A stretch of 64,000 bases of DNA from Limonium bicolor. Its lineage: Eukaryota; Streptophyta; Magnoliopsida; Caryophyllales; Plumbaginaceae. The stretch is from positions 299,284,167 to 299,348,166 of the forward strand of contig CM041779.1 in the NCBI GenBank assembly GCA_023374045.1, written 5' to 3'. Made by a program: the position numbers and the translations under genes. The notes beneath the pieces are model-generated. The model searched no databases and was not told the DNA's origin. It worked only from the letters and a program-made list of their open reading frames with translations. The number at the start of each line of letters is the position of its first letter. Position 1 is the stretch's first letter. This document shows, piece after piece, positions 32,012 through 62,044 of this stretch.

Positions 32012-32017
32012 AGTTTT

Positions 32018-38117: not shown

Positions 38118-38130
38118 TCTTACAGTTGCA

Positions 38131-38673: not shown

Positions 38674-38699
38674 AACAACAGTTCAGAAAATAAAAAACG

Positions 38700-39317
38700 C
38701 CGTCTTCCATCTTCGCTACCCCTACTCACATCCCCAATTTAGCCTACAATCCCTAACCTTCCCCGACCTTCCTCGCCGCACACATCCACCACATCCATTT
38801 TCCGGTCACCCACTCCCACCCGCCACCAATTACCGCCACTCAGTTCACCGCCAACACATCCCGTCACCACCTGCATTTCCGCCACCACCACTACTATACC
38901 CCATTTCCGTCGCTCTCCTGTATTCCACCACCACTTCACCGTCCCAGTCGCACTAGCACTTCGCCACCAACTTCTGCCCGCCCTCTCGCCAGCTTCTCCT
39001 GCCATCGCTACCAGTCCGATACCCACACCTATCTGTCGCCTCCACCACACCATTATCACCCCAACCCAAAGCTGCTCGCATCACCACGGTGCTCACCCTC
39101 CTCCCTCCGGCTCCGCGTCATCACCCATCACCACCACATCCGCCAATACCACCCCCAACCCGACACTTGTTCCCAGTTCTCACTTCCGTCGGTTCCTCCC
39201 TCCCTTCCATATCACTACCACTTCGCCGCGCCCCGGTTTACCCACTGCAGTCCATTTCTACCAGTGACCCAAATTCGCAATACCACCCGACACCAATTTC
39301 CATTTTCCGAATTATCC
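38700..39317 (+). promoter_or_regulatory. C-rich, G-poor leader before ORF3 of B
   Basis: About 600 bp dominated by C, A and T with very few G on the plus strand (for example CCACCACATCC, CCCACTCCCACCCG). There is no conserved coding signal despite open frames. It resembles a plant 5' UTR or pyrimidine-rich core promoter and stands directly upstream of the ORF3 start, so it may be an internal promoter or the acceptor side of a spliced transcript. Confidence 0.5.
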
Positions 39318-40331: not shown

Positions 40332-42024
40332 GACATTCCGATACCTGCTGGACCGGCCCTGGGTTATGACGAGCTGCTGCATGAGTTTCAAGACTGAAGG
40401 GGGACGGCTACAGCTCGCTTTGATGGGTTTTCGGATTATATGACTCAGATGGATAGTCGGCTGGACGGGATGAGTTCGACGATCTATGACTATGGTGCGT
40501 GACTCTCGGCTTTGGAGACTCGCCAGACAGAGTACGAGGCTCGGCAGGATGCACAGTTTGCTGAGTTCCAGGCTCGTCAGGAGGCCCGTTTCCGCGACTA
40601 TGATGACCGCTTTGCACCGCTAGAGTCCTGGCGCCTACCCCGTCAGTAGTACATGTGTCGGTTTATGTCCTCTCCTTCATCGGTCTTCCTATCTTTTATT
40701 GTTATTTTGATGACTTTTTATATTTTGTCATTTGAGATATTTTGATGTTTTTTTAGATTGTTAGCTTTTTATTCCTTTGGTTTTTTTCGTTTCAGTTTGG
40801 GATGTAATTGATGACTATAATGATTCTGCACTTTTCTCTCCATGGTTAATGAACTACTACTCTATCGTAGTACTGTGTTTGATATTCATCCAGGTCTTCT
40901 TATATTTTGATAAGTTTCATACACCATACAAAGGAGACTCTGCCCGATTCTTTCCAGAACTCCATCCGCTCGATTATGTCACAACTTAACCAGGGGAGTT
41001 CTGTTCTTCCTTTTACATTTTGTTTTAATTTTGGAAGCAATGAGGGCATTTCTTGATTTTAAGTGTGAGAAAGGAAGGTTATACTAGGTTTTATATTGGA
41101 AGCTATGAGGACATTGCTCACTTTTAAGTGTGAGAAAGAGGGGAGTTTACACTTGGTTTTATTGAGGATATCAATTTGTTTATCTTTCTTTGATTTTTGA
41201 CGTCATGTTTTTCTATCACTGATGTTTGCTTACCCTCAACAAATTTTTGATTGAGACTTACTTGGTTTAATTGGTGGTAAGATGAGTCAGTTGGGAATAC
41301 CGTACAAGTAGCACATTTTCTAAAGTCGAATTTGGATTTCAAGTCAAAGACACTTGGGTTATGCTGCTTGTATGTATAGATTTTGCTAAATTTTATCTAT
41401 TTCTTTCAGTAAAAGGTGAGACCATTTTTGTGACTATTTTTGTTTGGATTAATCTAGGGCTTTGGAAAGTTATGGCATGAAAGGAAAGAAAGGACAATGG
41501 CAAGGTACTCCTCTAATCTATTCTGAACCGGAACAGGCCTCTCCCATCTGGTTATTAAGCCCTTGGAGTGCCTTATCACTCATCTACCTAAGGTCATCTG
41601 ATCTGGGATAGAAGGCCTAACACCGCTACATGGACGGGGAGAAAAGTCTGGGGGGATGAAAAAGAATAACGCTAATTCAGAAAGAAGGAAAGTACTTTCA
41701 ATCTAATAAGTTATTGCAAATTCTTCTTTGATTATGAGTACGTGGCAATGAAAGGTAATATGGAATATGATATTACTTCTTGTCCCTTGTCGTCCAATGG
41801 ATTGTGGAGAGTAAAAGGAAAGTAAAGCCCTGGGTGAAATCTGGACTAGATAGTTATGAAAATTTTCTCAATCATTTAACAACGTTCCCACTTCACTGTT
41901 TATGAAAACCTGTAGTACTAACCATTGTGTCTTTTGGTTGTTGTTCAATACTAGATTTCCTTGTACACTTTTCCTAATCTGATGACTCCCCGCTATTGAA
42001 ATCCAGTATATTCTTATTGCAGTA
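40332..42024 (+). other. 3' non-coding region of Athila B
   Basis: After the degenerate ORF3 tail (to 40649) there is about 1.4 kb of non-coding sequence. TTAAGTGTGAGAAAG-like purine tracts recur near 41055 and 41130, each preceded by an AATGAGGGCATT or ATGAGGACATTGCT motif. At 41504-41660 a block (AGGCCTCT... to GATAGAAGGCCT, then AAAAGTCTGGGGGGATGAA) is closely matched in element C at 24594-24740. Confidence 0.7.
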
Positions 42025-42062
42025 TTTGCTTGAGGACAAGCAAAGGTTAAGTGTGAGAAAGT
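42025..42062 (+). promoter_or_regulatory. Terminal hairpin and polypurine tract of B
   Basis: TTTGCTTG-AGGA-CAAGCAAA (42025-42044) is an 8-bp stem with an AGGA loop. GGTTAAGTGTGAGAAAGT then runs to the 3' LTR at 42063. Confidence 0.8.
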
Positions 42063-43573
42063 TGATAAGTCGGGAATTTATCTATGTCTATGGGGTTTAT
42101 TTGTGCTTAATTCAACGTTATCTGTTAATAAATTCCCACCTTATGGTTAGTTTTATGCTTTTATTTGCAACTGTCTTCTATGATGGGTTTACGTGTTATT
42201 TCAGACGAAAATCTCAAGAAAACGCATTCCCGATCATTGTAATGTTATTCTGGACTGTCAAACGTGTTGAACAGAGTGAAGACTTGCACTATCTCTCAAT
42301 TTTATGATGGGTCCGGGACCTTGCACAGACCCTAAGTCCCGGACCATCCATTGGAGTTACTCTCAAACTGTTTTGGAGACTGGTCCGGGACTTGTTACAA
42401 ACCCTAAGTCCCGGACCAACCAAAGGCATTACTCTCGACCTGTTTTAATGACCGGTCCGGGACTTGATACATATCTTAAGTCCTGGACCATACTTGGAGA
42501 TAAAATCTCGGCGTATTTTAGAGACTGGTCAGGGACTTCATACTTGGACCAAGTCCCGGACCAATTAGATAAAACGCGGCCAGAGTATGCGTGGAAGAAG
42601 AGAATTAAAGATAGAATTATTATTGTTACAAAAGTAGAGGTCAGCCAACGTGAGAGACATGCTTGGATACACCACAGAGCTTAGTTTTACACAGAAGAGA
42701 AGAGGGAGAGAAAGGCGGAGTCTTGGGCAGATCTTGGAGGCTAACAGAGAGAAGGCTGAAGCAAGAACAACAGAGAATCCACGACGGCTGTTGACATTAG
42801 AGTTTCTTCTTGTTCTTGTTTCCCTGAGTCTTTACTATTAAACTTGTGCACTATCATTATGAATATGTCTGAGTAGTCTCTTTTAGATTCCGGTTTGCTA
42901 TGTATCCCTAAATTGACTATTCCTATTCCTTTATGATTTATTGCAATTCTATTGAGTAAAGTTATTTTCCTTGCTTAATTTCTTTAATCGTTATAATTTG
43001 GTCAATTATAAAGATTAGTATTTTGTTAGCTTATATGTGACGACTGCGGCTTTCAATCGAATACAGGGAAATAACCGGTTAGTTTAGAGACGGTAATTCC
43101 TCTAATTGCTAATTGACCGATAATCTAGATTGTTCGTAAGGCGGTTAGTAAATAGTGGGTTCGTAACGAGAGTTAGAATTCGGTCTTTGCTAGCTAGAAT
43201 TTGCTAAGCGGGAGACCGGAGGTGAATTATCTTTGTTCTAGGGTTTTATTCAGAATTGTCTTGGAAATCGCTTAGGGATAGGAATTATAGATTTAGGGAG
43301 AAGTAGTAAACCGGGATCTCTTTCCCAAATCAGTTTCGAAACAATTATTTTGTTGCTTTTTACTGTTTTACATTCTGTTTACAGCTTTTATTTATCATCA
43401 AATCAAAACCCCCAATTTCCTATTTTAATTTGTTATTCAGTCTTTTTATTCCTTTCTGTTTAGTAAAGATTTAAACTAGACATCGCCTCCTCTGGTTCGA
43501 TACTTAGGGAATGCTCTCTATCAAAACTTGCTAGAACTGACCGGTACACTTGCCGTTAGGTTTTATCCTAACA
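42063..43573 (+). repeat. 3' LTR of Athila B
   Basis: It matches 30514-32011 with scattered point differences and a 12-base insertion near 42606. The hairpin units are at 42310, 42382, 42454 and 42527. It ends TTTTATCCTAACA, followed by the target copy CTTGC. Confidence 0.93.
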
Positions 43574-43578
43574 CTTGC

Positions 43579-46500
43579 TCACCAAATCCACAATATTGCT
43601 CCAAATCAAAAACTAAGCTTAGATTATTGTTAGTTGGAGCAAGACCTTCATTTCTATCTTTTCAAACCCCTCAAAGCTCAAGTTTGATTCCATGGAGAGA
43701 CTCCATTGAAGAGGGAAAATTCAGTTTTAAGAGCTCAATTTCATCTCCTTGCATACAAGGTAAGAAAAGTGACAGAAATTTAAGTTTCCTCCATTTTTCT
43801 TAATGTCCGAAAATCAACTTCTCATGGGATCTTGTTTTACTCCTCGAACTAACTTGTTTTAATCTCCAAGGGACTAGTGGAGGTCCTCTTTGATTCATTA
43901 CCAAAGTCTATCTAAAGAATCCAAAGGTAATCATCCATTTTAATGCTTTAAGCACTCTTTTAACCTAAGAGTAAATTCCATGAGTCTAGGTATGGTCCTT
44001 AGTACTCATTAGATTATTTGAATATCTATTAGAAGCTTAGCAAGAGAACTAAGAGTCCTTGCCGAAATCCAATCAAGAAACCCAAGGAGGAAAGTGAGAA
44101 AAGCTTGAGAAAAACAAGGTAAATTACTTACCTTAAGGTGGTTTAATGTTTTAAGGGATGGGATTTAGATAGATACTAAATGTAGCTTAGATCTTACATT
44201 ATATAATGAACTATATAACCTAGGAAAAAAATAATGTGATCACATTTATGAACTTGTGACTAAAGAGCAAATGGGAATTGAGTTAGTAAAACAATCATAA
44301 GGTGATTTACAAGAACACTTATATTGCTATGGGAGCATTGATGTGTGTAATTGCAGGTTGAAGGCTATATATGTGGGAAATTCAGTGTTTAAATTTATGT
44401 CATTTAAGGGCCTAAGAGCCAAGTCATTTAAGGGCCAAAGTGCCAAGCAATTTAAGTTTATGCACTATATTATGATGTGGTGTAGTTGGGTGTAGTTTGG
44501 GTGTAAAGAATGCTTGTTGAGGATTTTATTGTCTTAGGTGGTTTAAGGATGAAAAACTAAGTGTTTGGGTATAAGAATATACTAGGGAAGCTATGTCAAA
44601 TTTTAGTGAAGAAACTAGGTGTTTTAAGTGTTTTAATGAGGTGTTATGACCTAGAATGTACTAGGAATCATTAAGGGTTATTTTGGTGGAAATAAATAAA
44701 CTAAGGTGTTCTTGAGGATTGGAATGAACTAAGAATGTCTAAGTGGAACTTGAGGGTAGAATGGTGAATTCAAGACACCAAAATCATGGTGTGAGAGGTG
44801 TTGAGACTTGTGCAAAAATTTGAAGGAAATAAGGTGTATTGACTTGTGAAGATTTAAGTATGAACTAGAGAAGATAACCTTGAGAAGTTTGAGTAGTTTG
44901 AGTAAAGGAAATGGGGATGAATAATGATGCTTGAGGAGTGGTCAAAATGGGATTGAAGAAACACTTTGGTTAGTTAAGAATTTTAGGCAATGTTTGTATA
45001 TTGGAAGTGTAAGGAACTAAGTTTCAAGTGTTAGGAATTTGTTAAGAACTTGAACAAGTGTTTAAGGAATTTAGAAGTGAGTTAATCAATGATTCTGGTG
45101 GAGGAGTTAAGAGGGTTTTAAAGTGTCAAAATGATGTTAACGCATGCTAGGACACTTGTGGGAAAGATTGGAGTTAAATAAGCACTTTGGAGAAGGGTCT
45201 GCCTTCGACTGACCCAAGGGACCGACCTTGGTTGGGTCGGTCGGCTGCAAATTTCCAAAGGGGCGAAGTTTCTGACTTTGACCGACCCAGGGGGTTGCGT
45301 CGGTCGTGGGTCGGTCGGGATGGATTTATCGAAGGTTGAAGTTTCTGACTTCGACCGACCCAGTGGTGTTGGGTTGGTCGGGTCAGGCTGTTGGGTCGGT
45401 CAGGCCTTATAAAAAAATTTAGTTTAAAATTTAAGAATAATAAGAGGCATTAGTAGTAAGCCATTAGGAGGGCAATGATGATTAGAAGGATAAGCGTCTG
45501 AAGTAAAATGTTTTAAGTGTTTAAGGTTAAAACTACAAGGACTTAGTGGGTAAACAGTAGTGGTTAAGTAAGCTAGCTTAATTGGAAGTAATTAACAACC
45601 TGAATCAGATGAATGTTTTAGGACTTGAGAATTTGGACTCGAAAGGGGATTAGGCAACCGAAACAACCGACGGTGAATGGTATGGTTTTCTTGTAGCTTG
45701 TTTGCTAACGAGGTGTCCCTCGGCTTGTGTGCTATTTGTTTAATTGTTTAGACTAAAACAAGATAAAGCATGCAACCAGTTTAGTGTATTTCTTGTGTGT
45801 TTGCATTATACTAACACACTTTACATTGAGATTATTTACTAACTATGTTTAGTAAACAATGAGATGAGATAAGAATGCACTCCCTGTTATTGGTTGGTTA
45901 ATACCCGAAAAAGGTTTAACTAACACATTCGTCTTTGAGACTTTCACTAACTGGAACTTGGGGGTGTGAGGAATTCGGGACTGACTCCAGTCATGCATGT
46001 TAAGAAAAGGGGGTTGGTATTTGAATCAGATCCGACTTCCGATTGAGACTCGTCTTTGACTTGTCGCCTAGAGTCGACATATAGACTCGACCACCTTGGA
46101 TTACAGTTCAAGGTGGGAGGCCAAATTAAGATGGTGCGGTGGGATCTCCTAACTCCCAAATTAAGAAATAATGTTTATTTAAACCAATGGAGTTAATAGC
46201 TCATTGGCTAGAGTTACCTTTGACCCGACAAAGATAAACATTGAGTTAAGAGACAACCATTTATAATTAAAGAACGGCCGGTACACTGAGATAAGATTGG
46301 ATATGAGAATGAGAGGATACTTGACTTAAGGAGTTAAAAGCTAACTCACTTACTTAAGGAACACTTTTAAGTCGTTCATTGTGTTTGAACTATGAATTGT
46401 TCATATGTTGTGTGGTGTTTATTGTACTTCTTATTAATGTTGTATTAATAATCAACTGCATGTTTATGACAAAGTAGTCGTCGTAGCCCCTTTAGCTTGG

Positions 46501-46885
46501 GGGCTACAAGTTAATCGTACCAGCGAAGGTGCTAAGCCCCTCGGGGCATCCATATTAATTTTGCAGGAAAGAGGCCTCAGAAGACCCACCTCGAGAGTAG
46601 GAGCGGGTAGACTTAGGATAGCTTTATTTTGAGTACGGGTTGAGCATGTACACCCGTCTGTTGATATTAGAGGTTGTGGCAAACTATGTTAGACTTTGAG
46701 ATACTCGAAACTCGATTGGTATTTTTGGATAAGCCTTGTAAATATTAAGTTCGGTATATTCTGGTATGTCAGACCGTAGCAAGGTTCTGGTTGATGATGT
46801 TTAATTCCGCTGCGATGTTGATATATATATATATATATGGGTAAGATTTCGCGACAACCACGTTTAGTTGAGTTGGGATGTTACA
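43579..46885 (+). repeat. 5' LTR of A, right part
   Basis: It continues the LTR after the B insertion and aligns with about 58714-62039 of the 3' LTR at high identity. It contains the GACCGACCCA hairpin array near 45207-45420 and a TA microsatellite near 46820-46838. It ends GGATGTTACA at 46885. Confidence 0.9.
45207..45420. repeat. GACCGACCCA inverted-repeat array in the A LTR, 73-bp period
   Basis: Units start at 45207 (GACTGACCCA), 45280 and 45353 (GACCGACCCA), exactly 73 bp apart, each with downstream TGGGTCGGTC or close variants able to pair. The 3' LTR copies start at 60339, 60412 and 60485, again 73 bp apart. The stem sequence is unrelated to the GGTCCGGGAC arrays. Confidence 0.85.
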
Positions 46886-46890: not shown

Positions 46891-46902
46891 TGGTATCAGA
46901 GC
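46891..46902 (+). promoter_or_regulatory. Primer-binding site of A (initiator tRNA-Met)
   Basis: TGGTATCAGAGC, five bases after the 5' LTR, is the classic plant site complementary to the 3' end of initiator tRNA-Met. Confidence 0.95.
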
Positions 46903-47585
46903 GTTTGTGAACCGAGACCGTTGTAAACACAAGCCTAATGTGCTTAATGCTTATTCAGATGTCAGGAAAGAGAGGAGGCCTAGGCCGTGGCCGAGGCTAT
47001 GATGCTACCAATATACCGGGCGGGCAGACGATCGCTAAAATCGTGGCTGCCGCTCTGGGGCACATGGGATACCATCCCGGTGCACCACTGCCACCACCCC
47101 GGGAGCCAAATTGGGTGAAGAGCCTTGCTGATCTCCGACCCACGTCATTCAAAGGGGAGACAGATCCTGCTAAGCTTGAGGCGTACATCTCCGAGCTGGA
47201 GACCGCCTTTGAGACCCTTGACGTTCCTGCTGGAACCAAGGAGCGACTTGCCACTTTCTATCTAAAGGGGGTGGCGAGCGATTGGTGGAAGTTGGTAAGG
47301 GCCGAGCATGTGGCCAACCCCGATTTCGGCTGGGAGCAGTACACGGCCTTGCTGCGAGCCAAGTACTACCCCGCCCATGTCCAGACCAAGAAGCGTTTAC
47401 AGTTGGATGCGCTGAAGCAGACGGACAAGATGACGGTGGGCGAGTACTACTCTGAGTTCACCTCTCTGTTACGTCTTCTACCGGAACTAGGGTACTCGGA
47501 CCAGATCCTAGTAGACCGCTTCTACGACGGGCTGAGCCATCGACTGCAATATGGCATGGGGCTGGCGAGCTACACGACCTTGCAG

Positions 47586-47663
47586 GTAATGAGAGAGTTT
47601 GAACCGTTAGTAAGTGATTGAATTTTTCACCGTGTGAATGTGAGACTAATACCTTGAAAGCAG
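47586..47663 (+). other. Apparent 78-bp intron 1 in A gag
   Basis: The donor is TTGCAG followed by GTAATG. A CTAAT branch-like motif lies near 47645 and the acceptor is TTGAAAGCAG. It contains in-frame stops. Its removal joins TTLQ to ECYHAVAKVE in phase 0, a natural gag sequence. Confidence 0.7.
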
Positions 47664-47913
47664 GAGTGCTATCATGCCGTTGCAAAGGTTGAGATCAGCG
47701 TCCAGCTAAGGGACGAGGACAATGCTGCTAAAAGAAAGACTACTGGTAAGAGTTCCGACAACCAAAGGCAAGGCGGGTACAAGAAACAAAAGTACCAGCC
47801 TCAGTCCCAGAAGGGTTCGAAGGGAAAGGGAGAGAATGAGAAGGCTACGGAAGAGCCTTTAAAGCTGACATATGCAATTGCTGCTAAGCCTCTGCGCTCG
47901 AAAGCGCCTGAGG

Positions 47914-47991
47914 GTAATGAGATACATCTTAAGTGAGTTAACAATCATTTAGTAACCTAGAGATCATATTACTAATGTTGAGAATGATCAG
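47914..47991 (+). other. Apparent 78-bp intron 2 in A gag
   Basis: The donor is CTGAGG followed by GTAATG, the same six bases as intron 1. TACTAATG near 47970 is a good branch motif and the acceptor is AATGATCAG. It is also 78 bp. Removal joins in phase 1 and puts the zinc knuckles in frame with the gag core. Confidence 0.7.
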
Positions 47992-48122
47992 GTTCAGAGT
48001 CTGGGAAGGGAGCTGGTGGGAGTTACCAGCGTCGTTACATATGTTCGTGGTGTGGCAAGGACCACCCCGGAACCGACTGCGAGGGCAACAAGGTGCAGTG
48101 CCACCATTGTGATGGTTGGGGG

Positions 48123-49761
48123 TGTTGGGCAAAATAGTAGTTAAACTATCTTGCTAACTATGGGCAGTGAACCCAATCTTTGTAGTACAACAAGGTCGTA
48201 TCCACAGAGACTTCGCAACTATCTAATTAATTATCCAGTTTAGTAAATGTACAAGAAGATAAATAAAAGTGCATAAAATGTAAATTGGGGGTTTAGCCGG
48301 AGGCAAGCTTGATTTGTTTTAGGATTAATGCAAAAATAATAAACACAGTAAAATAAAGTAAATGGATGGAAAAAGATATCCTAGGATAGCGGGGGAATTT
48401 CCTAAATTAATTAAACAATTTTATAACCCTGTCTCAATTATTTATTGTCTATTAGAGTTAATAATTGTCAATTACGAACTCTTAGTAATAGCCTCAGTAT
48501 TTTCCTGCTCAATCCGGAGTGTAAATTCCAAGGTTTATTCCTTTGTGGTACCTTGACTATCTCAAAATCATATGTTGATAGTTACCAAATAAATGCAGTA
48601 GTTTGTCACGCTAAGCATTTAACAATATTTGCTGAAAGGAATTGAAACAAGTTTAATAAGAGAGACAGGTGATAAATATTTATTTAAGTAATATTATGAT
48701 CAAACCCCATCCTAGGATATGAGTAAAAATCACTCAGACATTAACAGAAATAAAAAGAAAGCAGAGATAGCCATTATTTTGGAGACTGCCGGCGGAGACT
48801 GGACTGCGATTCGCTTCTGCTCCAGCTCCCTTTTCTTCTCTTCTTCTTATCGTGCTTCTGCTTCGTGGTGGAATGAAGAATGAAAATAAAATGGAGAAGT
48901 GGGAGATAAGAGGATGGAATGGATCGTAGGTGTGGAACGATGAACGGTGGTGGTCGATGGTGAACTGTGGTCTTTGGATTCAGGAAGGGATGGTCTATTT
49001 GAGCAGAAGCAGCGTGGGTTTTATAGAAGAAAGGAAGAGGAAGAAGACAGAGGGAACACCGCGTGAGCAATTTAAGGAATGCACCGCGTGAGGATTTTAA
49101 GGCAGGCGCCTGATATGGTTTAATGGAGTAGATGGATATGTCTGCAGACGCCGCAAAGGAAGAAGCAATTGGGGAAGACAGTCGGTGAAGAAAACCAGTC
49201 GTGACAGTTTCTGGATCTGGGTTGCATTTATTTCCTGTCTGTGCTTTTCATCAGGGATTAATTTATCTCTTGTCCGTCCAGATTTCCACGGACACATTTC
49301 TTCCTTGCTCACGTCCGTCCCTTGTCCGGCCTAATCTCCGCGGACACAATTGCCCTGTCCGTGCTTTTTTCCTCGGTCAACACACGGACATAAGTCCGTC
49401 CGGCCCTTGTCCGGCCTTTGTTATGCGGACAAGACACGGACGCAAATGTTCTTTTCCTGCCTTGGTTGAGCGGACACACCACGGACGCAAGTCTTTGACT
49501 CGTTTTCTTTTGCGAACTTTGACCGGCTCTAGATTCTTCGTTTGGACTCCGTTTTTTCGAGCCGTTTGCGCCTATGCGTTCGTCTCTTTGTCTACTTTGC
49601 TTCTAGCTTGGTTTTCCTCATGTTTAACCAATAAATTTGTGAGATAACCAATAAAACATAAACTAGAGGAAAAACATACGATAAGTGAGAATTGAGCAAG
49701 AAAAGTGCTGATATAATATATAAAATACACCCATAAAACATGCTCATTTGGATACTTATCA
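48123..49761 (-). repeat. 3' LTR of element D (left side)
   Basis: On the minus strand it begins TGATAAGTATCCAAATGAGC at 49761 and ends TTTTGCCCAACA at 48123. A minus-strand TATAAA lies at 49020-49025. Many GTCCG/CGGAC inverted motifs occupy 49270-49490 (for example 49272-49293 and 49324-49345). Confidence 0.92.
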
Positions 49762-51355
49762 CACCCCACACTTACCTTTTGCTTGTCCTCAAGCAAATCC
49801 ATGTACCCAAGCAAGTAGGGAATGCTCAATACTAACAAATATTATTATGAAGGGTAGGATAAAGAGGTGTACAGTACACGATCTTTAAACTTTTCGAGGA
49901 GTGTGATCCATCAACTGCTGGTGGCACAGGTGTACTCAGGGTAAAAATAAAAATTAGAGTTTCGGGGTATGATCCGGAGTACTTCAATGCTTCTTAGTTA
50001 AGGTGACTTTGAGAACTTTTGCCATGGCCAACTTCTCTCAAGAATGGGCATTGAGGAGAAAACAAAAGGAAAAATAGAATTATGCATTTGTTTCACTTTT
50101 GCATAAGAGATGAGAAGATAATATGTAAGCATCAAGCTTTTGTATTTAAGAACACTCAACTCTCTTTGTTGGTTACCAATGGTGTCTTGCAAGTCCCTTA
50201 TTTATTATTTTTTTATTTTTTTGACAGAGAAGCACCCCTTAGCAATCCCTAAGAAAGAAGACAGAAGGAACCCCTGAGCAATAAAAATCCAACCATTTCA
50301 GATCATTTGGTCACACCGCATAAAAATGCTCCTCAAAAGCAAAATTTAAAATTTTTGTACCATTTATCCCACAATTCATAACAGTATTTATTCATAAAGA
50401 GAACAACCCACATATAGAGGGTCCACGATATTGAATTTGGACAAACGCAAGATAAGCAGAGAGATTAAGCATTTTAAGCACAAAATGACACTGAAAAGGG
50501 CACACTCCCCCACACTTAAATTGAACAATGTCCTCATTGTTCACTAGAAAAACAAGGGAAATTTTCAAAAGACCTTTTCGGTAAGTAGATAAAATAGAGA
50601 GAACACAAAGCTCACAAATAAACATTTAAGCATAGAAACTCTCCTCAGTAGATTTTATTTAAATAAAAGCATAATTAAAGAAACTGGTACTCCCCTGAGA
50701 TTATTTTTGCTTGTGTTATAGGAGTTCCCCCACACTTGAGCTTCAGCCTCAAGTAGCGTAGCTTGGTTGCGGTGTAGACATGAAGTTACACCTGCATAAG
50801 ATACTAGAAGCAACCATACTACAAGCGGGGTTAAGAGTTAGCAAAAACAAAATTTAAAGAGAGCATGAAAATTAAAAGAGCATAAAAACAAATAAAAGAA
50901 AAGTTCATCCGGGTTGCCTCCCGGGAAGCTGCCCTTCTTTAACGTCTTTGGCTAGACTCCCGCTTCGTTATCCTGGATCAAAAATAGAAGTAGAACAGCT
51001 TTGCCAGGAAAACGAAGTTGGCAGTAATTAAAAGCAAACCACCTGGATCAAAACAAAACGTTACTTCGGTAAATATAGTAGGAAAATGAATACTCCACAA
51101 AACCCGGTGTTTGAGGAGGTACTGCCGGTAGCGTAGTTCTAACAGGAGACCAGGTGTGATTGGCTTTGCTTCCTCAAATTGGAAGATGTAAACATCCTCC
51201 TCTTGTTGTTGAGGCTTATGGGAAAAGCCGTGATGGAGATGACCATCCATCATAATTAAGTACCTTTAAAAAGAAACAAAAATTTATACACAAAACGGGC
51301 AAATAACGGAAAAAGAAAAACTAAACAAATAATAAACTAGATAGTTGGACCGAAG
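49762..51355 (-). other. Internal region of element D
   Basis: Read right to left after the primer site there is leader, then a stretch (51253-50970) with an acidic EEDVYIFQFEE motif close to the element-C sequence. The two-hairpin element follows (50957-50909). Then comes a non-coding 3' region with an 8-bp GAACAATG-AGGA-CATTGTTC hairpin and TTTAAGTGTGGGGGAG tract (about 50510-50545). The terminal TTTGCTTG-AGGA-CAAGCAAA hairpin is at 49797-49778, with a purine tract into the LTR. No gag or pol is present. Confidence 0.75.
50909..50957 (-). ncRNA. Two-hairpin structured element in D
   Basis: On the minus strand, hairpin one has GTCT-AGCCAA-AGAC (50957-50944) and hairpin two CCGGG-AGGCAA-CCCGG (50924-50909). 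The spacing and GGGCAGCTT spacer are as in B and C. Hairpin two has a third, compensating stem sequence. Confidence 0.75.
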
Positions 51356-51373
51356 TCCCCGGCAACGGCACCA
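51356..51373 (-). promoter_or_regulatory. Primer-binding site of D (tRNA-Asp, one mismatch)
   Basis: The minus strand reads TGGTGCCGTTGCCGGGGA, one base different from the perfect tRNA-Asp site, six bases inside the 5' LTR of D. Confidence 0.9.
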
Positions 51374-51379
51374 AAAACT

Positions 51380-53016
51380 TGTTGGGCAAAATAGTAGTTA
51401 AACTATCTTGCTAACTATGGGCAGTGAACCCAATCTTTGTAGTACAACAAGGTCGTATCCACAGAGACTTCGCAACTATCTAATTAATTATCCAGTTTAG
51501 TAAATGTACAAGAAGATAAATAAAAGTGCATAAAATGTAAATTGGGGGTTTAGCCGGAGGCAAGCTTGATTTGTTTTAGGATTAGTGCAAAAATAATAAA
51601 CACAGTAAAATAAAGTAAATGGATGGAAAAAGGTATCCTAGGATAGCGGGGGAATTTCCTAAATTACTTAAACAATTTTATAACCCTGTCTCAATTATTT
51701 ATTGTCTATTAGAGTTAATAATTGTCAGTTACGAACTCTTAGTAATAGCCTCAGTATTTTCCTGCTCAATCCGGAGTGTAAATTCCAAGGTTTATTCCTT
51801 TGTGGTACCTTGACTATCTCAAAATCATATGTTGATAGTTACCAAATAAATGCAGTAGTTTGTCACGCTAAGCATTTAACAATATTTGCTGAAAGGAATT
51901 AAAACAAGTTTAATAAGAGAGACAGGTGATAAATATTTATTCAAGTAATATTAGGATCAAACCCTATCCTAGGATACGAGTAAAAATCACTCAGACATTA
52001 ACAGAAATAAAAAGAAAGCAGAGATAGCCATTATTTTGGAGACTGCCGGCGGAGACTGGACTGCGATTCGCTTCTGCTCCAGCTCCCTTTTCTTCTCTTC
52101 TTCTTATCGTGCTTCTGCTTCGTGGTGGAATGAAGAATGAAAATAAAATGGAGAAGTGGGAGATAAGAGGATGAATGGATCGTAGGTGTGGAACGATGAA
52201 CGGTGGTGGTCGATGGTGAACTGTGGTCTTTGGATTCAGGAAGGGATGGTCTATTTGAGCAGAAGCAGCGTGGGTTTTATAGAAGAAAGGAAGAGGAAGA
52301 AGACAGAGGGAACACCGCATGAGCAATTTAAGGAATGCACCGCGTGAGGATTTTAAGGCAGGCGCCTGATATGGTTTAATGGGGTAGATGGATATGTCTG
52401 CAGGCGCCGCAAAGGAAGAAGCAATTGGGGAAGACAGTCGGCGAAGAAAACCAGTCGCGACAGTTTCTGGATCTGGGTTGCATTTATTTCCTGTCCGTGC
52501 TTTTCATCAGGGATTAATTTATCTCTTGTCCGTCCAGATTTCCACGGACACATTTCTTCCTTGCTCACGTCCGTCCCTTGTCCGGCCTAATCTCCGCGGA
52601 CACAATTGCCCTGTCCGTGCTTTTTTCCTCGGTCAACACACGGACATAAGTCCGTCCGGCCCTTGTCCGGCCTTTGTTATGCGGACAAGACACGGACGCA
52701 AATGTTCTTGTCCGGCCTTGGTTGAGCGGACACACCACAGACGCAAGTCTTTGACTCGTTTTCTTTTGCGAACTTTGACCGGCTCTAGATTCTTCGTTTG
52801 GACTCCGTTTTTCGAGCCGTTTGCGCCTATGCGTTCGTCTCTTTGTCTACTTTGCTCCTAGCTTGGTTTTCCTCATGTTTAACCAATAAATTTGTGAGAT
52901 AACCAATAAAACATAAACTAGAGGAAAAACATACGATAAGTGAGAAATGAGCAAGAAAAGTGCTGATATAATATATGAAATACACCCATAAAACATGCTC
53001 ATTTGGACACTTATCA
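51380..53016 (-). repeat. 5' LTR of element D (right side)
   Basis: Nearly identical to 48123-49761 with few substitutions and small indels. A minus-strand TATAAA lies at 52276-52281. It begins TGATAAGTGTCC at 53016 and ends CCCAACA at 51380. Confidence 0.92.
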
Positions 53017-53242
53017 GGGGGCACCAAGCCTATGAGTGCTTTAGAAACCCTGAGAGCAAAGCCTATCGACCCGACTGGAAGGGCAAGGGCAAGGGCAAGG
53101 GTAAGGCCGACCAAGGCACTGGATCCGACGGTCAGAAGGGACACAGCTAGCCGCCAACAAAGGACCCGGGTAGTCCAGAAGTTGGGGCCTACTCTTCATA
53201 TATTGGACCGGGAGGATGAGGCTGAACCCTCATCGAGACCAG

Positions 53243-53376
53243 GTACCGCTATAACCCATTAAGTGATAAAACTGCCTGCTTACCGCATTTCATGCATGTT
53301 TGAGTGAATGATTGAGTTAGATAAGATTTAGTATTTAATTAGACCACATGTAGGATATAACTTACTACCACCTTAG
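53243..53376 (+). other. Possible 134-bp intron between A gag and the AlkB block
   Basis: The donor is GACCAG followed by GTACCG and the acceptor is CTACCACCTTAG before 53377. The join is phase 1 and would fuse the gag tail to the AlkB frame at NFNICYP. Frames inside contain stops. It is inferred from sequence only. Confidence 0.5.
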
Positions 53377-54116
53377 GAAACTTCAACATTTGTTATCCAA
53401 TACCTTCAACACTTAACCCGGAAGTGACCGACATCGAAACCCGAGAGATCACGCAAGATCAGTGTCAAGTTATCCACCCAGGTATGATTTTATTAAGGGG
53501 ATACCTGACACCCGAAGCACAAATAGCCATCATCATGAGATGCAACTAGCTAGGAGTGGGACCGGGAGGTTTTTATACACCGGAGTACCCTGGAGGAGCA
53601 AAGATGAAACTAAGGATGATGAGCTTATGCAAGGATTGGAATCCGTATGCCAAGACATACCATAACACGAGAGCACAAGATGGAGCATCACCACCGGAAA
53701 TACCAGAAGAATTTCATCCAGTTGTTACGCAAGCTGTGGAGATCGCTCAGCAACTTGAAGCTGATCCGATCCCAGACATACAAGCAGATCTGTGCATCGT
53801 CAACTTCTATGAAAAAGAAGGATGACTTGGATTACACCAAGACAAGGACAAGACAGTGGAGTCTCTCGAAAGAGGGATACCCGTAGTGTCTTGGTCCATT
53901 GGAGATGACGCGGAATTCCTTTATTGCAAGCAGAAGCGTGTGGATCGTGCCATGAAGTTGGTACTTAAGTCTGGAGATGTGTTAATCATGGGTGGAGAGT
54001 CAAGAATGTTGTACCATGGTATTAATAAGATCAAGCTGAATACAACACCACCAACAGTAATCAATGCTATGCATATGAGACCAGGGCGACTAAACCTAAC
54101 CTTTAGGCAGTACTAG
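53361..54116 (+). pseudogene. AlkB-like 2-oxoglutarate/Fe(II) dioxygenase domain captured by chromovirus A
   Basis: One frame of 252 codons with no frameshift resembles the plant ALKBH1-like group. Ordered motifs are GMILLRGYL, LGVGPGGFY, GGAKMKLRMM, ADLCIVNFYEKEG, LGLHQDKD, IPVVSWSIGDDAEFLY, LKSGDVLIMGGESR, MLYHGI and MRPGRLNLTFRQY. The Fe ligands His (53835), Asp (53841) and His (54015) and the 2OG-binding Arg pair (54087, 54105) are all present. Family members remove methyl groups from nucleic acids by oxidation. In-frame stops at 53547 (TAG) and 53823 (TGA) fit C-to-T decay of CAG and CGA. It lies between gag and protease of A, and no intron is needed within the domain, so it may be a processed copy. 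The N-terminal third of a typical host protein is missing. It ends at a stop where host proteins end. Confidence 0.92.
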
Positions 54117-54120
54117 CCAT

Positions 54121-54262
54121 GTAATACCTTAAGTATGATGTAATGAAGGAAGCACATGATGTAAAAAGGATGGTTATCAATTAAATAACAACGTTGTTCA
54201 TATTAATTGTTACGACTCGTGTTATACCATCAATACTCATGAAAGATTGTGAAATACATTAG
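54121..54262 (+). other. Possible 142-bp intron between the AlkB block and protease
   Basis: The donor is GCCAT followed by GTAATACC, and the acceptor is GAAATACATTAG before 54263. The phase is 1, matching the upstream intron. The same acceptor paired with the donor at 53243 would skip AlkB and join gag to protease in frame. Confidence 0.5.
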
Positions 54263-57200
54263 GTCATGGACTCGGTACGGAAGGTGCGTTAAGCATTCTT
54301 ACGGAGGCACAGGCCGACGAAAGCAGTACTATCCTTACCGGCACCTTTCCGATCAATGGCGTTGATGCATCAGTGCTATTCGACTCAGGGGCCTCGCATA
54401 CCTTCATCTCATCATCATTTACGAGGAGGTTGGGGCTAGACGCTGATGAGCTACCGGACTTCCCGGTTACGCTCCCGTCTAAGGAGAAGGTTTGATGCAC
54501 TCGCTACTACTGAGAAGCCACCATCAGAATCAAGGGTGAAGACTTTCTAGTCACCTTCATTGAGTTCAGAGATTTGGGATTTGATGTGATTTTCGGGATG
54601 AACTGGTTGGAGCGGCACAAGGGTCGTATCCTCTGCGCCGAGCACCGACTGCTACTCAGGAGTCCATCTGGGGTTACAATCTCATACCACTAGAGGCCTA
54701 GAGAGCCTTCGACCAAGATCATCTCCGCCATAGAAATGTTTAGAGAACTGAGGAGGAAAGAGGAAGTATATATTTGCTATGTCCAGGACATAGAAAGAGA
54801 CCCCGAGTTTGACCCCGATTTACCGGTAGTGTCGGAGTTCCCCAATCTCTTCCCACAGGAACTGCCCGGCATGCCACCCACTCGGGAGGTAGAGTTCACC
54901 ATTGAGCTGCTACCTGGAACTGGACCGATAGCTAAGGCGCCTTACTACATGGCTCCAGCTGAAATGAATGAATTAAAAGAACAACTGAGAGACCTACTCG
55001 ACAAAGGATTCGTGTGACCTAGTGTTTCACCATGGGGAGCACCAGTACTCTTCGTCAAGAAGAAGGATGGCAGTCTTCGCCTCTGCATCGACTATAGAGA
55101 GCTGAATGCAGTGACAGTGAAGAACAAGTACCCGCTACCACGCATTGATGATTGGTTCGATCAGTTGAAGGGGGCATCCATGTTCTCCAAGATTGATCTC
55201 AGATCTGGGTACCATCAGATAGCCATTAGAGAGGGAGACATTGAGAATACGGCATTCCGGACACGATATGGCCACTACGAATTTACAGTGATGCCGTTCG
55301 GTTTGTCGAACGCACCAGCGAAATTTATGGATCTGATGAACCGTTTATTCAGGGAGCAGTTGGACAATTCGGTTGTAGTCTTCATCGACAACATCTTGAT
55401 ATATTCAAAGTCGAGAACTGAGCATGAGAAACATTTGAGGAGAGTTTTGAAGATACTGAGGGAGAACCAGTTTTATGCTAAGTTCTTCAAATGCAAGTTT
55501 TGGCTTGACCAGGTCTCTTTCCTTGGTCACGTCATCTTGGATGCTGGGATCGTTGTAGATCCAGCAAAGATCGATGCCGTACGCACCTGGCCAAGACCGA
55601 AGACAGTTACCGATATCAGGAGCTTTCTCGGCTTGGCAGGTTACTACCGTAGATTCGTGAAAAACTTCTTTAAGGTCGCAAAGCCGATGACCAGTCTGAT
55701 GAAGAAAGATGCACCATTTGTATGGACGACTGACTGTGAGAGTTCGTTTCAGAGTTTGAAGGAGTCATTGACTTCTGCACCAGTTCTGACTATTCTAAAC
55801 GGTACGAAGGGCTTTGAGGTTTATTATGATGCATCCGGCAGGGGATTGGGTTGTGTACTCATGCAGCACGACAAGGTGGTCGCTTATGCCTCTCGTCAGC
55901 TGAAGAAACATGAGGAGAACTACCCCACACATGATTTAGAGTTAGGAGCTGTAGTCTTCGCCATGAAGATATGGCGCCACTACTTGTACGGGGTTAGTGT
56001 GACTATCTACACCGACCATAAGAGCTTGAAATATATATTCACTCAGAAGGAGTTGAATCTTCGACAGAGGAGATGGTTAGAGTTTCTGAAGACTACTATA
56101 TTGACCTCCAGTAAAGAAGGGAAGGCCAATGTTGTAGCTGACGCCCTGAGCCGTCGAGCACACTCACTCCATTCGCTACTCGCTTCTTCTATCTTGGTTG
56201 ACGAGGTGCGAGAGGCTCAGAGGAACGATGAATACATGAGAGAGGTCAGACAGAAGCTGACAGAGGGTACCTTTGAGAGTCAGAAATACGACTTCAGACT
56301 TCATGATGATGATCTGATCATACTTAAGGGCCGGTTATGCATACCACGAGGCAGCGCTGATCTGAAAGAGCGCATACTACGAGAATCGCACTGTTCTTCA
56401 GTTTCTATCCATCCAGGAGCCTCTAAGATGTACAAAGACATGAAGAGGTACTTCTGGTGGTCAGGGATGAAGGCAGATGTTACCAAGTTCGTACTGAGGT
56501 GTCTCACATGCCAGGAGGTGAAATTTGAGCACCGACGACCGGGCGGAATGGTACAATCGATGCCAGTTCCGGAGTGGAAGTTTCATGATATCTCCATGGA
56601 TTTCGTGGTCAGACTCCCACCTACCAGGGGAGGTCTGAACATGATATGAGTTGTAGTTGATCGCCTGACCAAGGTAGCCCGATTCATTCCGATGAAGGAC
56701 ACCTGGAAGGTAACTAAGCTTGCAGAGCTATTTGATGAGGAAATCATGAGACACCACGGGGTACCGAAGACCATTGTATCCGATAGAGACACCTGATTCC
56801 TTTTGCGGTACTGGAGAGCTACACGGGAAATGCTGGGTATAGAATTGAAGTTGAGTACTGCGTTCCATCCTAAGACAGATGGTCAGAATGAGCGTACGAT
56901 TCAGACACTTGAGGACATGCTGAGAGCATGTGCCTTGGACTTCCAGAGCAGTTGGATTGACAAGTTGCATCTGATCGACTTCTCGTACAACAATAGCTAT
57001 CATGCTTCGATCAAGATGACACCTTTCCAAGCGTTGTACGGTAGACCATGTCGTACACCGCTCAGCTGGGATGAGTCAAGTGAGGCGGTCATTATAGGAC
57101 AAGAGTACTTAGAGCAAGTTCAGGATGAGGTTCAGCAAATCAGGGAGAATATGAAAGCTGCTCAAGATAGGCAGAAGTCGTATGCTGATGTCCGACGACG

Positions 57201-57620
57201 AGACCTCGAGTTCACAGTGGGCAACCAGGTAATTCTGCGAGTTTCACCGATGAAGGGTGTATTTAGATTTGGGCAGAAGGGCAAACTAAGCCCGAAGTTT
57301 GTAGGTCCTTATGCTATTACGGAGCGGGTGGGCCCAGTTGCTTACAGGTTGATTTACCAGCTGAGCTGGGTAAAGTGCATGACGTCTTTCATGTTTCACA
57401 GCTTAAGAAGTACATGCACCACCCCTCTCATGTTTAAGAGCCGAAGAGATTATCCTTAGAGCCGAATATGAGATCAGGGGAGACCCCTCAGAGGATCTTG
57501 GATACTAAGACTAGGGACACTCGCCATAAGTCAGTGCGACTGTGAAGGTTCTCTGGTCAAACCAGGATGTCGAAGAGGCCGCTTAAGAGTTAGAGGATAA
57601 GATGAGAGCGAAGTACCCTT
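54263..57620 (+). pseudogene. pol: Chromovirus A pol: protease, RT, RNase H, integrase, chromodomain-like end
   Basis: One frame runs from 54265 to about 57350 with only nonsense codons. Protease has VLFDSGASHTFIS. RT has [51 protein letters not shown] and FIDNILIYS, in which the second catalytic Asp is Asn (GAC to AAC). RNase H has [13 protein letters not shown] and [10 protein letters not shown]. Integrase has the His pair near 56385, CLTC, DFVVRLP, IVSDRD and HPKTDGQNE. Most of the stops are TGA where Arg CGA is expected. After a frameshift near 57350 the tail resembles a chromodomain (VLWSNQDVEEA, then ELEDKMRAKYPSLF). Confidence 0.92.
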
Positions 57621-57949: not shown

Positions 57950-60900
57950 TGAAATACCCCAAACCTAGATATGGTGATTAGAGGTTAAACTAAGACATAA
58001 TAAGGCTAAAACATGCCTTAGAAACATTAGTAAACAATTTAAACCATAGATAACATAAGAAAACACCATAAAGTTAATTTAAGCAAGAACATGCTCTAGA
58101 CTTGGTGTAAGCTTGATTAAGACCCAAAGGTCATTCTTAGACCTTATTAACATGCTAATGGACATGTTAAATCAATTACCAAAGAAAACCATGCTCAAAA
58201 AACAAGTTAAAACACAAATTGTGCTTTAAGGAGTCTTAAAGCACATTTTTGAAAAATTGTCTTAGAAAGAGTTTTTGAGTGGCTAAATGACAAATATCAT
58301 ACCTTAATAAACATTTTTACTACTTAGTATCACATTAGGAAGCCTAAATCAATGATAAACCAAAAAGTTCACAAATATGTGCACTAATTGTGAATAGTGC
58401 CCAAATAGTGCTCAATTTAGGCTTAAGTCAACTTTGCTTAATTAATTGGTCAAAATAGCCCATAAATATCCTAACTAAGGAAGGGGGCCAGTTTTTGAAG
58501 GTGATGAGTCACCATAAGACTTCAGCACTTTAAGAAAAGAAGAGGGAAAAGTAAGGAAAAAGAACTATTTGCTTTTAAGGAAATATCTTACCAAAACCAA
58601 CCTCTCTCCTCTCTTCTCTTCATTCCTTCCTTCTCCCACCATGTTCTTCTTCTTCTTCTTCCTCTCAAGAAAACCGTAAGAACCAGCTCCATCCTTCTCC
58701 ATCTTGACTTGCTCACCAAATCCATAATATTGCTCCAAATCAAAAACTAAGCTTAGATTATTGTTAGTTGGAGCAAGACCTTCATTTTCATCTTTGAAAA
58801 TCCCTCAAAGCTCAAGTTTGATTCCATGTAGAAACTCCATTGAAGAGGGAAAATTCAGTTTTAAGAGCACCATTTCATCTCCTTGCATTCAAGGTAAGAA
58901 AAGTGAAAGAAAAATCAAGTTTCCTTCATTTTTCTTAATGTCCGAAAATCAACTTCTCATGGGATCTTGTTTTACTCCTCGAACTAGCTTGTTTTAATCT
59001 CCAAGGGACTAGTGGAGTTCCTCTTTGATTCATTACCAAAGTCTATATTAAGACTCCAAAGGTAATCACCCATTTAATGCTTTAAGCACTCTTTTAACCT
59101 AAGAGTAAATTCCATTAGTCTAGGTATGTTCCTTAGTACTCATTAGATTATTTGAATGTCTATTAGAAGCTTAGCAAGAGAACTAAGAGTCCTTGCCGAA
59201 ATCCAATCAAGAAACCGAAGAAGGAAAGTGAGAAAAGCTTGAGAAAAACAAGGTAAATTACTTACCTTAAGGTGGTTTAATGTTTTAAGGGATGGGATTT
59301 AGATAGATACTAAATGTAGCTTAGAGCTTACATTATATAATGAACTATATAACCTAGAAAAAATAATGTGATCACATTTAAGAACTTGTGACTAAAGAGC
59401 AAATGGGAATTGAGTTAGGAAAACAATCATAAGGTGAATTACAAGAACACTTATATTGCTATGGGAGCATTGATGTGTGTAATTGCAGGTTGAAGGCTAT
59501 ATATGTGGGAAATTCAGTGTTTACATTTATGTAATTTAAGGGCCTAAGAGCCAAGTCATTTAAGGGCCTAAGTGCCAAGCAATTTAAGCTTATGCACTAT
59601 ATTATGATGTGGTGTAGTTGGGTGTAGTTTGTGTGTAAAGAATGCTTATTGAGGATTTTATTGTCTTAGGTGGTTTAAGGATGAAAAACTAAGTGTTTGG
59701 GTATAAGAATATACTAGGGAAGATATGTCAAATTTTGGTGAAGAAACTAGGTGTTTTAAGTGTTTTAATGAGGTGTTATGACCTAGAATATACTAGGAAT
59801 CATTAAGGGTTATTTTGGTGGAAATAAATAAACTAAGGTGTTCTTGAGGATTGGAATGAACAAAGAATGTCTAGGAGGAACTTGGGGGTAGAATGGTGAA
59901 TTCAAGACACCAAAATCATGGTGTGAGAGGTGTTGAGTCTTGTGCAAAAATTTGAAGGAAATAAGGTGTAGTGCCTTGTGAAGATTTAAGTATGAACTAG
60001 AGAAGATAACCTTGAGAAGTTTGAGTAGTCTGATTAAAGGAAATGGGGATGAATAATGATGCTTGAGGAGTGGTCAAAATGGGATTGAAGGAACACTTTG
60101 GTTAGTTAAGAATTTTAGGCAAAGTTTGTATATTGGAAGTGTAAGGAACTAAGTTTCAAGTGTTAGGAATTTGTTAAGAACTTAAACAAGTGTTTAAGGA
60201 ATTTAGAAGTGAGTTAATCAATGAGTCAGGTGAAGGATTTAAGAGGGTTTTAAAGTGTCAAAATGATGTTAACACATGCTAGCACACTTGTGGAAAAGAT
60301 TGGAGTTAAATAAGCACTTTGGAGAAGGGTCTACCTTCGACCGACCCAAGGGACCGACAGTGGTTGGGTCGGTCGGCTGCATATTTCCAAAGGGGCAAAG
60401 TTTCTGACTTCGACCGACCCAGGGGGTTGGGTCAGTCGTGGGTCGGTGGGGCTGGATTTATCGAAGGTTGAATTTTCTGACTTCGACCGACCCAGAGGTG
60501 TTGGACCGGTTGGGTCAGGCTGTTGGGTTGGTCGGGCCTTTTAAAAAAATATTTAGTTTAAAATTTAAGAATAATAAGAGGCATTAGTAGTAAGCCATTA
60601 GGAGGGCAATGATGATTAAAAGGATAAGCATTTAAGGACTTAAGAAATAAAGTGAAGTAAAATTATTTAAGTGTTTAAGGTTAAAACTACAAGGACTTAG
60701 TGGTGATTCGTGGGTAAACAGTAGTGGTTAAGTAAGCTAGCTTAATTGGAAGTAATTAACAACCTAAATCGGATTAATGTTTTAGGACTTGAGAATTTGG
60801 ACTCTGAAGGGGATTAGGCAACCGAAACAATCGACGGTGAGCGGTATGGTTTTCTTGTAGCTTATTTGCTAACGAGGTGTCCCTCGGCTTGTGTGCTATT

Positions 60901-62039
60901 TGTTTAATTGTTTCGACTAAAACAAGATAAAGCATGCAACCGGTTTAGTGTATTTCTTGTGTGTTTGCATTATACTAACACACATGACATTGAGATCATT
61001 TACTAACTATGTTTAGTAAACAATGAGATGATATAAGATTGCACTCCCTGTTATTGGTTGGTTAATACCCGAAAAAGGTTTAACTAACACATTCGTCTTT
61101 GAGACTTTCACTAACTGGAACTTGGGGGGTGAGGAATCGGGGATTGACTCTGGTCATGCATGTTAAGAAAAGGGGGTTGGTATCTGAATCAGATCCGACT
61201 TCCGATTGAGACTTGTCTTTGACTTGTCGCCTAGAGTCGACATATAGACTCGACCACCTTGGATTACAGTTCAAGGTTGGAGGCCAGATTAAGATGGTGC
61301 TGTGGGATCTCCTAAATCCCAAATTATGAAATAATGTTTATTTAAACCAATGGAGTTAATAGCTCATTATCTAGGGTTACCTTTGACCCGACAAAGATAA
61401 ACATTGAGTTAAGAGACAACCATTTCTAATTAAAGAACGGTTGGTACACTGAGATAAGATTTGATATGAGAATGAGAGGATACTTGACTTAAGGAGTTAA
61501 AAGCTAACTCACTTACTTAAGGAACGCTTTTAAGCCGTTCATTGTGTTTGAAATATGAATTGTTCATATGTTGTGTGGTGTTTATTGTACTTCTTATTAA
61601 TGTTGTATTAATAATCAACCGCATGTTTACGACAAAGTAGTCGTCGTAGCCCCTTTAGCTTGGGGGCTACAAATTAATTGTACCAGCGAAGGTGCTGAGC
61701 CCCTGGGGCATCCATATTAATTTTGTAGGAAAGAGGCCTCAGAAGACCCACCTCGAGAGTAGGAGCGGGTAGACTTAGGATGGGCTTTATTTTGAGTATG
61801 GGTTGTGCATATACACCCGTCTGTTGATATTAGAGGTTGTGGCAAACTATGTTAGACTTTGAGATACTCGAAACTCGGTTGGTATTATTGGATATGCGTT
61901 GTAAATATTAAGTTCGGTATATTCTGGTATGCAGACCGTAGCAAGGTTCTGGTTGATGATGTCTAATTCCGCTGCGATGTTGATATATATATGGGTAAGA
62001 TTTTGTGACAACCACGTTTAGTTGAGTTGAGGTGTTACA
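57950..62039 (+). repeat. 3' LTR of chromovirus A
   Basis: It begins TGAAATACCCCAAACC and ends GAGGTGTTACA, 4,090 bp. The uninterrupted copy shows CTTGACTTGCTCACC at the place where B split the 5' LTR, confirming the nesting. The hairpin array is at 60339-60535. The target copy CAGCC follows at 62040-62044. Confidence 0.93.
60339..60535. repeat. GACCGACCCA array in the 3' LTR of A
   Basis: Units at 60339, 60412 and 60485 are each 73 bp apart, with TGGGTCGGTC-like partner arms downstream. It is the same array as at 45207-45420, with several point differences. Confidence 0.85.
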
Positions 62040-62044
62040 CAGCC

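Follow-up and report, generated by a model that had tools for sequence, protein, structure and literature searches.

A chromovirus-like Ty3/gypsy family, one complete member of which (element A) lies in the 64,000 nucleotides of Limonium bicolor DNA analyzed here (the window), appears to have taken up an ALKBH1-type dioxygenase long ago and to keep it as an alternative 3′-terminal exon within the intron between gag and protease; the Gag-AlkB protein would be packaged and would demethylate the RNA or the cDNA of the element. The probability of this reading is estimated at roughly 0.6. Its fuller version is put at about even odds: a multi-intron chromovirus whose single donor after gag chooses between the ALKBH1-type exon and protease/pol, whose packaged Gag-AlkB cleans element RNA or single-stranded cDNA, and whose enzyme stems from a second, independent capture, with dS now near saturation. 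An ALKBH1-type enzyme kept for so long suggests that the element may rid its own nucleic acid of chemical marks.

The AlkB block occupies 53361–54116 (+), where the window reads as a 252-codon frame interrupted by two premature stops (TAG and TGA) ahead of the terminal one. Such a mostly open frame is weak evidence because 536 of 18,070 sampled 251-codon frames of the window contain no more than two stops; homology has to decide. When the frame was cut at its stops, PF13532 matched the middle piece (53550–53822; E 3.9e-8, profile positions 25–106) and the third piece (53826–54113; E 2.9e-24, positions 109–194), and the first piece (53361–53546), searched alone, gave no AlkB match. The top PDB sequence match of the third piece was 5xeg (E 6.9e-32), and ALKBH5 was absent among the PDB sequence matches of this piece. 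The whole block, with its stops written as X, retrieved plant ALKBH1-type proteins from the protein database. The ordered motif set that the sequence-only reading had described, including HxD, the distal His, and both 2OG-binding Arg, is present, together with N-x-Y; the catalytic motifs (the HxD...H iron ligands and the two 2OG-binding Arg) were retained in all six AlkB rows checked. In a further copy of the element, L010, the AlkB exon covers PF13532 from position 1 to 194 of 194 (E 1.2e-49). The fold was assessed on an AlphaFold model not of the window copy but of P0001, a relative from the protein database (70-row alignment, pLDDT 92.9). Its best PDB match was again 5xeg, by title rice OsALKBH1 (TM 0.92, E 7.6e-28, 52% identity), and the ranking by fold was headed by OsALKBH1 (ranks 1–2), followed by E. 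coli AlkB (3–25), mammalian ALKBH1 (from 26), and the first ALKBH5 at rank 43. By homology, the block is a real ALKBH1-type 2OG-Fe(II) dioxygenase (PF13532), as had been proposed from the letters alone, and not a member of another family; its demethylase activity is putative, judged from the enzyme type and the motifs. Two details of that proposal fared less well. The AlkB frame stands, but its start does not: 53361–53376 belongs to a predicted intron, and the exon most likely begins at 53377, right after an AG acceptor. C-to-T decay as the source of the two stops could not be shown: compared with six other copies, either codon has changed at two of its positions.

Element A is one complete insertion (29754–62039) with CAGCC, a 5-bp target-site duplication, on both flanks (Table 1); the placement of the AlkB block between gag and protease of a chromovirus-like LTR element is supported. 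The lineage is putatively chromovirus, Tekay/Del-like. The L010 counterpart of the chromodomain-like stretch after integrase matched PF00385 in the expected place (E 2.5e-4; 21.3 bits against a cut-off of 25.1), and two pol relatives, P0186 and P0234, carry Chromo among the best 120 of 7,976 pol matches. The primer-binding site is presumably of the initiator Met tRNA type. The LTRs of the window copy differ by a K2P distance of 0.044–0.048, which at a substitution rate of 1.3e-8 per site and year corresponds to an insertion age of about 1.7–1.8 million years. Two younger elements are nested in element A. The one splitting the 5′ LTR, an Athila-like element, contains an additional ORF (39264–40331) matching PF20167, a putative plant transposon protein. 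The one in the gag zinc knuckle looks non-autonomous because no pol-like ORF of at least 120 codons was present among the window ORFs listed for it. Outside element A, a pair of LTR-like direct repeats (20991–22698 and 25158–26867; 98.8% identical, ∼2.5 kb between them) spans 20991–26867.

Table 1. Features of element A and of the elements nested in it, in window positions; a slash marks a predicted splice junction, and rows are those of the alignment of the window with 12 further copies.
Feature	Position	Strand	Evidence
5′ LTR of element A, first part	29754–30513	+	Target-site duplication CAGCC at 29749–29753; blastn 29756–30514 vs 57952–58713, 95.3%
Nested younger Athila-like LTR element, splits the 5′ LTR	30514–43573	+	LTRs 30514–32011/42063–43573, 97.4%; target-site duplication CTTGC; gag/pol Pfam matches
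5′ LTR of element A, second part, end TGTTACA	43573–46885	+	blastn vs 58707–62039, 94.4%
Primer-binding site TGGTATCAGAGC	46891–46902	+	Read from the sequence; motif also in several other copies
gag exon 1 (capsid core, Retrotrans_gag)	46938–47585	+	PF03732, E 5.2e-19; donor CAG/GTAA at 47586
Predicted intron A, 78 nt, phase 0	47586–47663	+	Donor CAG/GTA in 13/13 rows; acceptor AG/GA in 11/11
gag exon 2, 250 nt	47664–47913	+	Frame uninterrupted; 10/11 rows have length 1 mod 3 with GT donor
Predicted intron B, phase 1	47914–47991	+	Donor AGG/GTA in 11/11 rows; AG acceptor in 10/10 aligned rows by eye, 8/11 by pattern
gag exon 3, first part (zinc knuckle)	47992–48117	+	Ends at nested insertion, target-site duplication GGGGG at 48118–48122
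Younger LTR element nested in gag zinc knuckle	48123–53016	+	LTRs 98.5%; target-site duplication GGGGG
gag exon 3, second part	53017–53242	+	Ends at donor CCAG/GTACCG; gag frame shifted in window copy
Predicted intron C, short form (to AlkB acceptor)	53243–53376	+	CCAG/GTA and AG/GAA in 13/13 rows; phase 1
AlkB (ALKBH1-type), putative alternative terminal exon with own stop	53377–54116	+	Two premature stops in window copy
Predicted intron C, long form (AlkB skipped, up to TTAG/G)	53243–54262	+	13/13 rows; phase 1 in three subfamilies
Protease to RT start, several stops in window copy	54263–55110	+	PF08284, E 5.3e-14
RT, RNase H, integrase zinc-binding part of pol	55111–56649	+	PF00078, PF17917, PF17919, PF17921
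Integrase C-terminal part	56803–57459	+	PF24626; then chromodomain-like stretch, frame-shifted in window copy
3′ LTR	57950–62039	+	Target-site duplication CAGCC at 62040–62044

The genome (2.92 Gb in 2,686 contigs) was searched with PF13532, and the best 150 of 38,325 first-look candidates were scored. All 150 matched with E < 3e-45, all but one (149/150) were free of internal stops, and they were spread across all eight large chromosomes; their number is a lower bound on the AlkB matches in the genome, and the share of intact copies cannot be derived from it. From these, 12 copies were chosen by AlkB score and fetched with their flanks, and since both sets were picked by this score, intactness as well as ratios within subfamilies are biased. 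All 12 fetched copies share the order gag, AlkB, protease, RT, integrase, each with AlkB, protease, RT, integrase, and the zinc-knuckle tail of gag; the gag core was found in 11 (all except L012). The AlkB block therefore has further copies at the same gag and protease flanks, and neither a single copy nor a separate later insertion, two of the outcomes that would have spoken against the sequence-only reading, was encountered in what was testable. Because AlkB of the fetched copies is only 67–72% identical to that of the window, the window copy was treated as a separate subfamily (win), beside S1 (10 copies) and S3 (L013 and L015).

In an alignment of 13 rows (the window and the 12 fetched copies), every row has CCAG/GTA after gag, AG/GAA at the conserved N-terminus of AlkB, and TTAG/G before protease. 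Joined in phase 1 to the first acceptor, AlkB is open for 246 codons to its own stop in nine of the 13 rows and broken in the other four (window, L009, L012, and L018). Joined in phase 1 to the second acceptor, the protease frame runs without a stop up to the 300 codons tested in four of the 13 (L010, L016, L013, and L015). Phase 1 is also that of the longest upstream frame in 11 rows; in the two S3 rows (L013 and L015) it is not, and there the phase was assigned by homology of the gag tail, which is similar before the donor in all three subfamilies. When read without splicing, the frame meets a stop within seven codons in every row but L015 (12 of 13). Identity between subfamilies is only 46–65% for the intron parts, with 13–98 gap columns, whereas the AlkB exon is 70–72% identical without any gap. 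One conserved donor facing two conserved, in-phase acceptors makes AlkB look like a putative alternative terminal exon that would yield Gag-AlkB, the other product being Gag-Pol.

Two further intron-like gaps (introns A and B in Table 1) lie in gag between capsid and zinc knuckle, with sites and phases kept in the three subfamilies. They measure ∼78–90 nt in the window and in S3, and the exon between them is 250 nt long in the window, 241 and 238 nt in S3, and 259 or 256 nt in S1 (one row is damaged). With these gaps, several apparent stops in gag would be intronic and not a sign of decay. Judged by its predicted splice sites, the element would thus be a multi-intron Ty3/gypsy element.

Beyond the splice-like sites that hold their phase in three subfamilies, which the sequence shows, we infer splicing itself, a fusion product, its packaging, and its substrate, as follows. 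A single transcript would give rise to three proteins: when the donor after gag is left unspliced, translation would end as Gag; when the same donor is joined to the AlkB acceptor, a Gag-AlkB fusion would result; and when it is joined to the protease acceptor, with AlkB skipped, Gag-Pol would be made. The Gag part of Gag-AlkB would take the enzyme into the virus-like particle, as it would with Gag-Pol, and, once inside, AlkB would strip methyl groups (of the m6A/m1A type) off the genomic RNA or act on single-stranded cDNA. Demethylation may then shield the element from methyl-dependent sequestration or damage. For plant LTR elements, m6A on the RNA has been described to lead to sequestration in stress granules, from which ALKBH9B releases ONSEN (PMC12786077), and plant ALKBH1 has been reported to be active on DNA carrying 6mA, either single-stranded or in R-loops (PMC10469495). 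The substrate here may thus be RNA or single-stranded cDNA.

The enzyme could instead be directed at the host, demethylating host RNA, DNA, or R-loop DNA in order to blunt silencing and leaving the nucleic acid of the element alone. In rice, ALKBH1 has been reported to take 6mA off R-loops and to influence histone marks (PMC10469495), which would suit such a role, but the predicted fusion to Gag would place the enzyme in particles, and a host-directed function is considered somewhat unlikely.

Slightly less probable still is that AlkB forms a separate internal ORF, unfused to Gag, whose translation starts at an internal ATG or relies on a subgenomic RNA, with the AG sites being remnants or coincidence; if the internal ATG were used, a Gag-AlkB fusion would not be required. 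P0001 and P0003 are indeed called from an internal Met, and the orchid enzyme discussed below is described as sitting on its own ORF2 (PMC9289625). Against this, the 36 codons from the AlkB acceptor to the first conserved Met have pN of only 0.20–0.30 at pS of 0.68–0.78 and hence look translated from the junction onward; constraint upstream of the internal Met thus extends back to the acceptor. Moreover, the donor and the two acceptors hold site and phase in three subfamilies while the sequence and length of the intron drift. The alternative-exon reading is preferred for the family.

Between subfamilies, AlkB showed dN of 0.18–0.22 and dS of 1.60–2.55, the latter being near saturation, with ratios of 0.08–0.13 (NG86; ten AlkB rows, 23 pairs). 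Bootstrap intervals of pN/pS for three between-subfamily pairs fell within 0.18–0.34. For comparison, dN of RT was 0.11–0.12 between the window and four S1 copies (pS 0.76–0.79), and that of gag was 0.22–0.25 between the window and L010, L014, and L009. Ratios for AlkB within S1 ranged from 0.07 to 0.47, a range biased by the choice of copies. Judged by these substitution patterns, AlkB is under long-term purifying selection, looser than that on RT, with dN ∼1.7-fold that of RT and much like that of gag. A dN/dS of ∼0.1 between subfamilies, and not near 1, together with the presence of the gene in 12 of 12 fetched copies, agrees with the earlier proposal that it was kept through transposition. 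LTR elements do pick up host genes, and the two stops in the window copy and the broken frame in four of the 13 rows would fit a passenger caught by chance and copied without use; this is highly improbable given that AlkB occupies the same place in three subfamilies, that its dN/dS is ∼0.1 at near-saturated dS, and that nine rows are open, with the catalytic motifs kept wherever they were checked (6/6). A separate later insertion is likewise rejected, as AlkB sits at one and the same place in all 12 fetched copies and the ratio is low.

In a tree of all 120 database matches listed, a branch with support 100 set the window AlkB and four proteins, P0001–P0004, apart from the rest. A second tree combined six AlkB rows of this genome, P0001–P0004, and, from the remaining 116 plant proteins of that list, 42 that were taken as host genes; the first ten sequences stood apart from the 42 plant proteins (support 100/99). 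Within them, P0001 and P0003 were nested among the AlkB subfamilies of this genome, in a clade of eight rows (96/98), and P0002 and P0004 were basal to the element clade, in uncertain order. By this topology, the ALKBH1-type gene seems to have been acquired before the subfamilies split. P0001–P0004 come from short contigs. They could not be tied to elements: the gag search of the protein database yielded none among 5,848 candidates, and in the pol search none of the 120 listed of 7,976 matches could be assigned to their contigs. In P0002, Leu-Gly directly precedes the FDIC motif, which could be compatible with an AG/G acceptor there too. A viral or prokaryotic source gained no support, as pattern-based scans found no AlkB relatives in viral or genome contigs and no pol relatives in viral contigs.

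Element A combines an ALKBH1-type enzyme between gag and protease with predicted alternative acceptors and an iMet-type primer-binding site. The Phalaenopsis Ogre/Tat elements (Gypsy_Pa_2799) likewise are LTR retrotransposons with an AlkB dioxygenase in many copies and with kept cofactor residues, and their paALKBH5-like ORF2 product was reported to have m6A RNA demethylase activity in vitro; according to that report, an ALKBH5-type domain in LTR elements was found in no other of 121 plant genomes (PMC9289625). They are described, however, as 25 kb long, with a single gag-pol ORF1, the ALKBH5-type gene on ORF2, dual RNase H, and a tRNA-Arg primer-binding site (PMC9289625). Membership of element A in this group can be set aside: its enzyme is not ALKBH5-type and is found between gag and protease in 12 of 12 copies, not on a separate ORF2. 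A single RNase H region was found in 55111–56646, where it follows RT and precedes the zinc-binding part of integrase, and none in the other pol pieces scanned (56803–57456 and L010:7302-8189). Descent from the orchid elements by one shared capture, for which the common superfamily and the same broad idea might speak, hardly deserves weight, as the orchid enzyme groups with ALKBH5 and sits, in an Ogre/Tat element with dual RNase H, on an ORF2 apart from a single gag-pol ORF (PMC9289625), whereas here an ALKBH1-type gene lies between gag and protease and the scanned pol pieces hold one RNase H region. Identity with the orchid elements is rejected on AlkB type, place, and lineage features as given in their published description. 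The ALKBH1-type capture thus looks independent of the orchid ALKBH5-type capture.

The predicted splice arrangement also has partial parallels. Ogre elements contain an intron that must be removed for pol and is spliced in part of the transcripts, but it is described as lying after protease, between gag-pro and RT (PMC6317226); in element A, by comparison, the predicted intron lies between gag and protease and holds an alternative coding exon, with two further gaps in gag. In EVADE and BARE1, alternative splicing sets the gag product, a short Gag; EVADE, however, is a Ty1/copia element in which the splice removes protease, and the account of it mentions no added enzyme exon (PMC12786077). OsALKBH1 (5xeg/5xoi) is alike in fold and motifs, with P0001 52% identical to 5xeg, but is a host gene. 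Plant RNA viruses (Alpha- and Betaflexiviridae, Closteroviridae) offer a further case of a parasite-encoded AlkB, but in RNA viruses (PMC9289625). A review of December 2025, as far as its relevant sections go, gives the orchid case as the sole AlkB example and Ogre and EVADE as notable intron-bearing elements (PMC12786077). In the literature searched (top-ranked results, with subscription papers mostly outside), no ALKBH1-type or chromovirus AlkB element was found. The earlier statement that no chromovirus with AlkB had been described has to be narrowed accordingly: a Ty3/gypsy AlkB was already published from orchids, but as that one is Ogre/Tat, ALKBH5-like, and on ORF2 (PMC9289625), the chromovirus, ALKBH1-type case is unmatched in the literature searched. 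No literature case found matches the predicted choice of a gag donor between AlkB and protease acceptors either, for which a function is proposed here from sequence.

Two kinds of plant Ty3/gypsy element thus appear to have acquired different AlkB enzymes, an ALKBH1-type one in the present family and an ALKBH5-type one in orchid Ogre/Tat. This suggests that retrotransposons repeatedly meet nucleic-acid methylation as an obstacle. Should the splice arrangement be confirmed, LTR elements would have a new way of balancing Gag, Pol, and accessory enzyme and of targeting the enzyme to the particle. A large survey is described as having sought extra ORFs upstream or downstream of the polyprotein, with a minimum of 250 codons (PMC6317226), a design that may help explain how such genes could escape it.

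LTRs were sought in ten of the fetched copies, five of which were re-examined, and clean ends were obtained in four. Their LTRs differ by K2P distances of 0.0085 (L017), 0.018 (L011), 0.024 (L019), and 0.036 (L015), and three of them have exact 5-bp target-site duplications (ACAGT, GGCAT, and TTGTA); the duplication of L011 had no exact match. The four datable copies of the AlkB element are young, which indicates recent activity. As for the others, L013 gave no clean ends, L009 no LTRs, and L010, L014, and L016 partial ones, and L020 turned out to be a tandem repeat. Because strong AlkB copies are numerous and mostly free of stops, and because some insertions are young, the question becomes testable in the living plant. 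The locus of L020, which also holds L035 and L036 (G000:C1:497439466-497470353), contains four AlkB matches ∼10.1 kb apart; the flanking pieces of one of them are 99.6% identical over 5.1 kb, and the AlkB element seems to be arrayed in tandem at this locus.
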